DNA from: Atopobium sp. BS2
GTDB lineage: Bacteria > Actinomycetota > Coriobacteriia > Coriobacteriales > Atopobiaceae
Reading direction: 5' to 3'
Assembly: GCF_000565075.1 (NCBI RefSeq)
Contig: NZ_JDFG01000046.1
Location: 1-54,262, forward strand
DNA length: 54,262 nt
Positions 3,017-46,832 of the stretch are shown one piece after another. Numbering within the stretch: the first letter of the stretch is position 1; the number at the start of each line of letters is the position of its first letter. The translations under genes were made by a program, and so were the position numbers. The notes under the pieces are model-generated. The model saw only the letters and a program-made list of their open reading frames with translations, was not told the DNA's origin and did not search any database.

Positions 3017-3045
3017 ATGCCCTCCTTCTTGTAGTGCGTAAGGAC

Positions 3046-3140
3046 GGCATCGACTCCCTACGCTGGCATTACCCAGATCAGGTTAATGGGTCGCAACATA
3101 CGGTGCTGCCTCTCAGCCGGGCCATTTCCCAGCTCCCCGT
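3046..3140 (-). promoter_or_regulatory. TPP riboswitch (thi-box) controlling thiXYZ
   Basis: On the minus strand the leader reads CGGGGAGC, then GGCTGAGAGG, GACCCATTAACCTGATCTGG, then GTAATGCCAGCGTAGGGA. The CUGAGA and the ACCUGAUCUGG/UAAUGCCAGCGNAGGGA blocks are the defining conserved parts of the THI element. It ends about 30 nt before thiX, so thiamine pyrophosphate most likely lowers expression of the importer. I see no long T-run between the aptamer and the gene, and the thiX ribosome site is close by, so translational control is the simpler reading. Confidence 0.95.
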
Positions 3141-3147
3141 TACAGAT

Positions 3148-3175
3148 ATTATAGCGCGGACGCCTCTAACATCAA
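3148..3175 (-). promoter_or_regulatory. Promoter of the thiXYZ operon
   Basis: On the minus strand TTGATG (3170-3175) is followed after 16 bp by a perfect TATAAT (3148-3153). This places the start of transcription just before the TPP riboswitch, as expected. Confidence 0.7.
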
Positions 3176-28749: not shown

Positions 28750-28798
28750 AACTACAAGCACAGAAATGTAAGAATAAAGCCTCTGTATTCCATTTGAT

Positions 28799-29044
28799 TT
28801 GACTGCCTCCCATTTCTTGGACATAAGAAATGGGAGGCAGTTCATATGCGGGGGATTTGATTCTGCAGCGTGTTAGCGTCGGCTTTTAGGCCTGGCGCAC
28901 AAAATAGCGCAGCTTTGGTAGGTTTTGCTGAAGAATTGACATGTTCCCAATCAAGATAGCCAGGCAGCTAGGCGGCCGCACTACCCGATATGCATCTCTA
29001 TGCATAAACTTAATCTAATATGCTGGAAAATGAATAGACTTATA
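28799..29044 (+). repeat. 246-bp interspersed repeat, copy 2
   Basis: Reverse-complement match to positions 1-246. It opens with a 17-bp stem hairpin (28802-28841, arm ACTGCCTCCCATTTCTT), then a segment containing GCGTGTTAGCGTCGGC, then TAGCCAGGCAGC and an ATGCAT-containing AT-rich end. There is no ORF. The hairpin loop sequence is the complement of the loop in copy 1, as expected for an inverted copy. Confidence 0.88.
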
Positions 29045-29082
29045 TAAGAAATTTAACTATCGATAAATTCTGTATCTACGGA

Positions 29083-29211
29083 ACACACCTAAGTCGGATA
29101 ATCTGCTCAGATGAGGGCATTTTACACATCTAATGACGATAATCTGCATGATTGAGGTATTTTCTGCGTCATGTATACGTCTTTTTAACAGATTATCCGA
29201 CTTAGGTGTGT
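29083..29211. mobile_element. 129-bp MITE-like element with perfect 23-bp terminal inverted repeats, copy A
   Basis: The left end begins ACACACCTAAGTCGGATAAT (29083-) and the right end (29189-29211) is its exact 23-bp complement. An internal block (29124-29147, ACACATCTAATGACGATAAT...) is a third, diverged version of the end sequence in the same orientation as the left end. There is no ORF. A second element of the same length lies at 43672-43800. No clear target-site duplication is visible. Confidence 0.8.
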
Positions 29212-29213
29212 AT

Positions 29214-29260
29214 TGAACTGCCTCCTATTTTTTTGTGTCTAAGAAATGGGAGGCAGTTCA
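29214..29260. repeat. Third copy of the ACTGCCTCC hairpin
   Basis: The right arm AAGAAATGGGAGGCAGTTCA (29241-29260) is identical to the right arm of the hairpin at 201-246. The left arm carries substitutions (CCTCCTATTTTTT instead of CCTCCCATTTCTT). It follows the 129-bp element directly and precedes the terminator arm at 29262. Confidence 0.8.
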
Positions 29261-29298
29261 GATACAGAGGCTTTTTGCAAGCAATTGCTTTTTACATG

Positions 29299-43504: not shown

Positions 43505-44071
43505 TGCGCGCGTGCGGCGAGCGGCGGGCACGAGCAGCGGTCAGGCGTCAGGTGCGAGCGTGGCATGGGACAGGGAACGGCGGCGAGACCTGCGGGTTTC
43601 TCGCCGCACGCGATGCCTTAGCGGGCGTATGAGTTCCGTAAGCACATCCGTGTCTAGTTCGAAACGCCCGAACACACCTATGTCAGATAATCTGCTGAAA
43701 ATGCGTATACATTTCGCTCAAAACGCTTATCTCATGCAGAATATCGTCATTAGATGTGTTTTTGATTCTTGATTTTGCAGATTATCTGACATAGATGTGC
43801 TTGCTTAACCCTGAAATTTAGGGTAATTAAATCTTTGATATATCTTCATTCATAATTATGTATATCAGATAGAACTTATGCATAATAGTGAATTGAACGT
43901 ACCTGATTAAATTCAAATCCTATAACAAAAGCTAATCCACGATGTATTTGGGCTATTAAGCCTGACTTTATCTGCAGTTTTTTGAGGATGTTTCGTCAGT
44001 CGATATAACAGCACCGCAGCTGCCTACCGCGGTTATACTTGATACGTCAACTTTCAAGAATCCGAGGCGCT
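43505..44071. other. Intergenic region between eno and the PFK gene: GC-rich hairpin, 129-bp element, AT-rich tail
   Basis: No gene is visible in 567 bp. The first part (43505-43670) is GC-rich and contains the hairpin CGGCGAGA/TCTCGCCG (43581-43606), one arm of which is the repeated octamer. The 129-bp element fills 43672-43800. The rest is AT-rich, with TATGCATAAT-type words near 43875 like those in the 246-bp repeat, and a -10-like TATACT at 44034-44039. Confidence 0.6.
43672..43800. mobile_element. 129-bp MITE-like element with 24-bp imperfect terminal inverted repeats, copy B
   Basis: The left end begins ACACACCTATGTCAGATAAT (43672-) and the right end (43777-43800) is its complement except for two substitutions near the tip. 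The length equals copy A (129 bp). The internal third end-like block appears at 43732-43759, reverse-complemented relative to copy A, so the two elements lie in opposite orientation. Sequence between the blocks has diverged considerably. No ORF. Confidence 0.8.
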
Positions 44072-46460: not shown

Positions 46461-46597
46461 GCGAGAAAAACGTGGCGTTGAGGCGAGAAAATCACGTCAT
46501 TAGGCCGAGAAAATCATGACACTGAAACGAGAAAACGGTTTCTTTTGCACGTCTTTTGCGCGTCTTTTGCACGTCTTTTGCACGTCTTTTGCAATTC
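46461..46597. repeat. Helically phased repeat array: 22-bp x 4 then 11-bp x 5
   Basis: The word (G/C/A)CGAGAAAA recurs at 46461, 46483, 46505 and 46527, exactly 22 bp apart, once with the full GGCGAGAA motif. Five 11-bp units TTTTGCACGTC follow at 46543-46597 with small changes. A/T-runs thus repeat every one or two helical turns, as in intrinsically curved DNA. The array lies about 50 bp before the -10 of the riboflavin transporter operon and about 45 bp before murB. Confidence 0.85.
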
Positions 46598-46654: not shown

Positions 46655-46707
46655 ACGTATCGATATGTTTCAGAAATGGTTGCAATTACCTACTGGTGGT
46701 AAGGTGG

Positions 46708-46826
46708 CCGAGCTTCAGGGTTTATAACAGCCCAGTGCAAAGAGCCATCAAGTCCGCGACCCGCAAAGGCGGTTAACCTGGTTAAAGTCCAGGACCAACG
46801 GTACAGTCCGGATGTCAGAAACGGAG
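46708..46826 (+). promoter_or_regulatory. FMN riboswitch (RFN element)
   Basis: Conserved blocks in order: GCTTCAGGG (46712-46720), AAGTCCGCGACCCGC (about 46750-46764), CCTGGTTAAAGTCCAGGACC and ACGGTACAGTCCGGATG (up to 46815), closing AGAAACGGAG. These match the RFN consensus, with some departures in the first helices. It ends against the ribosome site of the S-component gene, so FMN probably blocks translation of the transporter. Confidence 0.9.
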
Positions 46827-46832
46827 ACTTTT

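Follow-up and report, generated by a model that had tools for sequence, protein, structure and literature searches.

The 129-bp element at positions 29,083 to 29,211 (+) is probably a solo, dispersed copy of a site array that belongs privately to a nuclease-like protein encoded in the same genome. It lies in a contig of 54,262 nucleotides from Atopobium sp. BS2, and this whole stretch is referred to here as the window. The original prediction suggested a binding-site cluster for a transposase or a regulator. That idea is supported in kind, by the helical phasing of the repeats and by a motif tied to one gene. The element in the window is itself a recent passenger of an IS3-family unit, but this passenger belongs to what appears to be an undescribed nuclease-array system.

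The three-site array and its IS3-family carrier

The array contains three sites of 24 bp. Site A forms the left end (29083-29106, +; ACACACCTAAGTCGGATAATCTGC), site B is an internal direct copy (29124-29147, +), and site A' is the inverted right end (29188-29211, -). Site B matches the left end at 19 of 24 positions, as judged by eye, and starts 41 bp, or about four helical turns, past the start of site A. The perfect 23-bp inverted ends (29083-29105 against 29189-29211) and the internal third copy that were first reported from the sequence are thus both real. So is the sister element of equal length at 43672-43800 (-), which has the same three sites with imperfect ends. The sister is of an old type that lacks IS3 ends, and its locus is common with position 411915 of a sister Lancefieldella genome, taken as L. 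parvula (G002).

What was described as a 129-bp element is the right part of a larger, non-autonomous IS3-family unit of 462 bp (28799-29260, +). Its left end is a 46-bp palindrome (28799-28844, +) that starts TTGACTG, not TGAACTG, and its right end is a palindrome at 29214-29260 (+). The unit is flanked by a GAT target-site duplication, with the left copy at 28796-28798 (+; by eye) and the right copy at 29261-29263 (+). It interrupts an intrinsic terminator whose left arm is at 28779-28788 (+) and whose right arm, followed by a T run, is at 29262-29271 (+). The terminator hairpin is uninterrupted at the same locus in L. parvula, which provides the empty site that had been sought, for the window copy only. 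The duplication was read against this uninterrupted terminator; because of a one-base alteration in the left end, an automatic rule returned ATT/GAT. The flank at the insertion lacks one G of the L. parvula site. A further IS3-ended unit, consisting of core and palindrome, is partially present at the contig end (1-246, -).

Most copies are arranged in the same way, with the array on the right within a longer unit that 46-bp palindromes bound on both sides. After examination of 30 matches, the right palindrome was seen in 18 of the 23 copies whose right flank is visible, and the left palindrome in 9 of the 15 copies whose left side is reached. Two further IS3-ended copies have 3-bp target duplications (AAG/AAG and TCC/TCC). 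Four IS3-ended copies have both sides in one contig. Three of them lie between terminator arms and one lies just before a terminator; one of the four lacks the left palindrome. The sequence of the palindromes corresponds to the left end of an IS3-family element, a complete version of which, encoding rve and HTH_21 domains and flanked by a 3-bp repeat, is present in L. parvula. In the window's own genome (G000; 1.60 Mb in 49 contigs), both genes of the element are found at locus L072, and L068 has the left end together with the beginning of the first gene. The left end and first-gene start are also present in a third congener (G003). Two loci in the window's genome (L059 and L084) have lone 46-bp IS3-type palindromes without a core, apparently minimal IS3 remnants.

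The 462-bp unit therefore has the features of an IS3-family MITE: ends shared with an autonomous element, a 3-bp duplication and, for the window copy, an empty site. A full-length insertion sequence with the ends of the 129-bp element had also been proposed as a target for search. An insertion sequence does exist, but its ends match the flanking palindromes and not the 129-bp ends. A simple MITE mobilized by its own transposase was rejected on this ground, and no element combining 129-bp-type ends with a transposase was met at the loci inspected. The arrays without IS3 ends showed no clean target duplication.

The window contains other features of note. The octamer GCGAGAAG/CTTCTCGC occurs 30 times in the whole window, against about 1.6 occurrences expected from base composition, with both strands alike. 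A TPP riboswitch (3038-3149, -) and an FMN riboswitch (46662-46827, +) both score above the Rfam gathering threshold, and tandem 11-bp units (TCTTTTGCACG) at 46541-46595 lie just before the FMN riboswitch.

Copies of the array in the genome and in its relatives

The original prediction called for further copies in the genome, and many were found. A search of the window's genome with the element gave 66 matches, arms counted separately. Intact 129-bp copies were taken from this genome (22, with more fragments at contig ends) and from L. parvula (8). The site pattern, with up to three mismatches, occurs 87 times in the window's genome, 26 times in L. parvula and not at all in three other congeners, and the reversed pattern is absent from all five genomes. 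The number of copies, together with these counts against the reversed control, indicates that the repeat layout is not a product of chance. Constancy of size holds in part. All 30 copies from the two species measure 129 bp, but five more diverged arrays in the same two genomes measure 137-139 bp and are longer by about one helical turn.

Ten loci, judged by their flanks, carry an array in both species. Five of these have copies without the right palindrome (L011, L017, L018, L026 and L027). Three more 129-bp loci are shared, namely the IS3-ended L006 and L007 and a copy beside the nuclease-like gene, and two arrays of other lengths are also common to both genomes. In the three most diverged orthologous pairs, sites and spacers are 88-90% and 63-79% identical, respectively. 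For the remaining five the ranges are 89-94% (sites) and 81-95% (spacers); one pair is equal and in one the spacers score higher (0.94 for sites vs 0.95 for spacers). Sites are thus clearly better conserved than spacers in some orthologous pairs but not in all eight. Several arrays sit between genes of unrelated function, and 6 of the 11 arrays in L. parvula lie within about 125 kb of the record ends (position 1), possibly near the origin.

Conservation at the same loci in distant relatives had been put forward as a sign of a fixed regulatory site. Several copies are indeed shared with the sister species, but the other 138 genomes of the family had no match. This result comes from an array model built on sequence only, which matched 2 of 140 family genomes (the window's genome and L. 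parvula) with filters that lose weak matches. The IS3-family element accounts only for the recent spread of the array, since the older copies have no IS3 ends. A phage, plasmid or virus source was also considered and rejected. The array DNA had no match in phages or plasmids and no exact site in viral contigs, and protein searches found no relative in plasmids (with one family member), phages (with another) or viral contigs (with three). A wider contig collection, from which records close to the window may have been excluded, gave one pattern match, in Peptostreptococcus porci, at about the level estimated for chance.

A nuclease-like gene adjoins the array

Outside the window, the same genome has a gene of 347 codons (contig C12, 13500-14543), with an orthologue in L. 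parvula (709855-710898). In both species an array directly follows the stop codon of this gene, and the gene adjoins adhE, with folA on the other side. In the window, positions 29000-29061 (+) are a non-coding remnant that resembles the 3' end of the nuclease-like gene, as found by BLAST and by ungapped comparison. In the BLAST alignment, L. parvula positions 709763-709911 match window positions 29000-29148 at 71% identity (E 7e-15), spanning the remnant and the first two sites. In ungapped comparison with the gene-side copy L120, the window remnant is identical at 49 of 80 positions, and 23 other copies have 44-52 identical positions of about 80 just before the array. The remnants of L041 and L043 need a one-base shift, and those of L002 and L009 are too short to judge. 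One copy, L010, has no gene remnant (23 of 66 positions identical). Most 129-bp copies, then, carry a remnant like the 3' end of this gene.

The gene pair of the two species has a dN of 0.10 and a dS of 1.19, values that indicate purifying selection. The L. parvula protein had no match in Pfam, NCBIfam or PADLOC. Its C-terminal domain appears to be Vsr/DUF559-like, of the EDxHD type, and the protein would act as a nuclease. A profile of nine Lancefieldella proteins was used to search 40 related genomes. The family was found in 31 of them, with 142 matches, of which 74 were examined. Among 63 members, residues E188, D233 and D268 are invariant, and E253, H259 and R271 are conserved in at least 90%. 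This E, D, E, H, D pattern agrees, at the level of sequence alone, with an EDxHD/Vsr-like nuclease of related fold. The best solved relative of the family profile is 3r3p, a 'Mobile intron protein' (E 3e-4). Pfam models matched a minority of the 63 members (MTES_1575 in 13, DUF559 in 6 and BAG in one), and the model for Y1 (HUH) tyrosine transposases matched none of them at E 0.01. The MTES_1575 family is described in one article as a Vsr-fold restriction endonuclease (PMC3710099).

The gene next to adhE appears to turn over rapidly. Between two congeners, G003 and G004, the nuclease-like proteins beside adhE are 39% identical, vs 96% for AdhE itself, which suggests that the protein and its motif were replaced together.

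Private motifs flank many genes of the family

An automatic test scored flanks for at least three copies of an 11-mer, with at most one mismatch, within 400 bp of the gene. Such repeats were found 3' of 43 of 74 genes, 5' of 23 of 73 and within the bodies of 5 of 74, so that not every member has them; L135, for example, has no 3' repeat in this test. The gene of the window's own array has sites on its 3' side only, and its array scores just 2. Shuffled sequences reached the threshold in 9 of 370 cases under a shuffle that could revert to plain shuffling, and in 7 of 370 when rerun as an exact dinucleotide shuffle. Tiles of the window reached it in 9 of 135 cases and tiles of the L. parvula genome in 13 of 188. 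By itself the 3' count is weak, because 36 of 133 windows farther out in the same loci also have at least three repeats.

The stronger observation is that the motif is shared between the two sides of a gene. The 3' motif recurs in the gene's own 5' flank for 24 of 42 testable genes, with at least two copies in 19. In the 5' flanks of other genes, at least one copy was found in 35 of 3024 comparisons and at least two copies in none of the 3024. Many family genes of the Coriobacteriales own a private motif. In the 5' flanks of 71 family genes, within 170 bp of the gene starts, self-match is also raised at 11- and 22-bp lags (0.288 and 0.287 vs about 0.26). This signal, which is absent farther upstream, resembles the 11-bp direct repeats of an OmpR/PhoB-type regulator.

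Ownership of a motif predicts that genomes other than that of its gene should lack dispersed copies, and five congeners were searched for this. The prediction held for two further motifs, each of which was clustered in its own genome alone. The motif of the G003 gene had 65 matches in G003 and 4, 3, 2 and 1 in the other four genomes. The motif of a second gene in the window's genome had 33 matches there, 1 in L. parvula and 0 in the other three. Reversed controls gave 1-3 matches per genome for each motif. With the array in the window, three Lancefieldella motifs are dispersed in their own genomes, and across the five genomes dispersed arrays of these motifs occur only where the matching gene is present. 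Inverted arrays on both sides of the G003 gene match 11 solo arrays at 77-95% identity over about 90-180 bp. Steps within the eleven solo clusters are mostly 21, 33, 42 or 43 bp. Neither these 11 loci nor five loci inspected in the window's genome were found to contain a family gene. At one cluster of the motif of the second gene, the window's genome has about 495 bp where L. parvula has about 31 bp. Presence/absence differences of this kind between genomes may reflect movement of the arrays.

Outside the genus, samples of 400 kb from two more genomes differed in their outcome. In G009, which belongs to another genus, 4 of the 6 own motifs formed clusters; none of the 20 foreign motifs and none of the 6 reversed ones did. 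In G019, which counts against the general pattern, only 1 of 4 own motifs gave a dispersed cluster, as did 0 of 20 foreign motifs.

Some arrays have features of their own. A sequence similar to the octamer that is frequent in the window lies at the centre of the G003 arrays. At five of five loci examined in the window's genome (L212-L215 and L231), the arrays of the second gene are accompanied by a separate array of another motif, ACAGATTCTTTG. None of the three family-gene loci of the genome was found to contain this motif, and its gene may accordingly have been lost. At L261 in G009 (1646-2183), the motif of L184 is repeated 17 times with a 31-bp period and one gap, in a 20-kb stretch in which no family gene was found.

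Helical phasing of the repeats

Neighbouring copies on the same strand are spaced at distances that cluster near 21, 31, 42, 51, 62, 84, 95 and 104 bp, with off-grid 3' spacings of 12, 16, 17, 38, 45, 73 and 75 bp. The helical repeat of DNA is about 10.5 bp, and at this period a Rayleigh analysis of 55 distinct 3' spacings gave R 0.58 (p~1e-8). All 75 spacings together gave p~3e-9, and the 20 spacings on the 5' side taken alone were not significantly phased (R 0.34, p 0.10). Phasing was retained when one spacing per locus was used and a near-identical orthologue was dropped (n=37, R 0.56, p~8e-6). When periods from 6 to 20 bp were scanned with the smallest spacing per locus, the peak was at 10.6. 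R was 0.10 for the 28 control windows with spacings. Proteins that sit side by side on one DNA face would be expected to leave phasing of this kind, and the arrays are likely to be bound in this manner.

Alternative explanations

An ordinary IS3-family MITE, in which the 129 bp are mere filler of a non-autonomous element, is an unlikely account of the array, even though the window copy has every outward sign of one: IS3 ends, the GAT duplication, the empty site in L. parvula, palindromes common among the other copies and an autonomous partner. As a full explanation it is contradicted by the arrays without IS3 ends at orthologous loci, since 5 of the 23 copies with a visible right flank lack the right palindrome and share both array and locus with L. 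parvula. A like arrangement with other motifs is also found beside other genes of the family. It is somewhat less improbable, though still doubtful, that the arrays are operators of another DNA-binding protein, a regulator or a nucleoid organizer, and that the nuclease-like genes are mere neighbours or targets. Helical phasing and conservation of sites would look alike in that case, and the position of several arrays between functionally unrelated genes would also be in keeping with it. What operators of a separate protein would not lead one to expect is a motif that varies from one family gene to another, often on both flanks of the gene, and three motifs that in five genomes are dispersed only where the matching gene is present.

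A structured RNA, in which a third arm is an alternative partner in a 23-bp stem, is very improbable. This idea was part of the original prediction, as a folded RNA with three similar arms, and the strand does fold strongly (z -8.4). Two-sided changes affect 6 of the 23 stem pairs, and none of 500 shuffles reached the covariation score observed. The sequences behind this score are related, however, and a like signal is to be expected from paired DNA sites. Despite the two-sided changes, compensatory change shows no preference for wobble pairs: the arm mismatches of 28 distinct copies comprise 12 G-T, 11 A-C and 27 others. In 8 of 15 sequences position 19 does not pair, the element has no match at the Rfam gathering score, and the periodicity of the spacings is that of DNA. 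The prediction of a folded RNA is therefore disfavoured, and a private array of the nuclease-like protein is the reading followed below.

Comparison with known systems

Several known systems share features with the nuclease-array system. Tn7- and Mu-type ends contain several transposase sites of about 22 bp in a fixed register and start with TGT. The element in the window also has several sites in fixed register, but its ends start with ACACA, and apart from that of the IS3 carrier no DDE transposase came to notice at the inspected loci. The 462-bp carrier is like an IS3-family MITE in its matching ends, 3-bp duplication and autonomous partner, but differs in that its cargo also occurs without IS3 ends. 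EDxHD homing endonucleases are related through 3r3p, which we take to be I-Bth0305I and which is the nearest solved relative of the family's C-terminal domain. The genes inspected here, unlike homing endonuclease genes, were not seen in introns or inteins; many are flanked by arrays and some have dispersed solo arrays. In a review passage, I-Bth0305I is said to dimerize on a target of nearly 60 bp (PMC3943268).

The closest parallel is with REPIN-RAYT systems. One account describes a resident enzyme gene for each repeat type, repeats beside the gene, dispersed copies as inverted pairs and gene-specific 'flavours' (PMC3116915). Nuclease-array genes likewise have their own adjacent repeats and dispersed copies, with a motif that differs by gene. 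The protein, however, is Vsr/DUF559-like and not a Y1 (HUH) transposase, and the arrays have at least three repeats with helical spacing, in contrast to the REP doublets of a REPIN. Since the enzyme is unrelated, the nuclease-array system is not a member of the REPIN-RAYT family.

A system of this kind has apparently not been described so far. In the open-licence literature, nothing was found that ties DUF559 to transposition or Coriobacteri- names to MITEs or inverted repeats, and an earlier description elsewhere is possible. Papers on DUF559 and repeats (by title and start of abstract) and papers on Vsr and mobile elements or dispersed repeats (among the matches listed) included none on nuclease-linked arrays. 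Open-licence literature on repetitive extragenic palindromic sequences likewise had nothing related for Coriobacteri- names.

A model of the nuclease-array system

In the proposed model, the three sites of the array, two forward and one inverted, most likely bind copies of the nuclease-like protein on one face of the DNA. Arrays would have been copied to other intergenic places, and most of the 129-bp copies would have taken along part of the gene's 3' end. Some of them have probably been kept at their loci since before L. parvula split from the window species. In the window species, an IS3-family element may then have captured one array, and the resulting 462-bp unit would have spread by IS3 transposition, one copy reaching the terminator hairpin in the window. 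We infer that the nuclease drives the copying of arrays in the manner in which a RAYT would act with its REPINs.

It is about an even chance that these genes and arrays represent a new class of gene plus satellite in Coriobacteriales. In such a class, a Vsr-fold nuclease would recognize and spread phased arrays, protein and motif would be swapped by fast allele turnover, and the whole would parallel REPIN-RAYT independently, with an unrelated enzyme at its core. Only a small number of enzyme families are known to maintain their own short non-coding satellites in bacterial chromosomes. The present protein family is common in the order searched, and many of its genes are paired with a private DNA code. 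The finding raises the questions of how a Vsr-type protein reads long sites, whether the DNA is copied, and why the allele beside adhE turns over so strongly. It also offers many natural pairs of protein and site from which rules of recognition may be learned.
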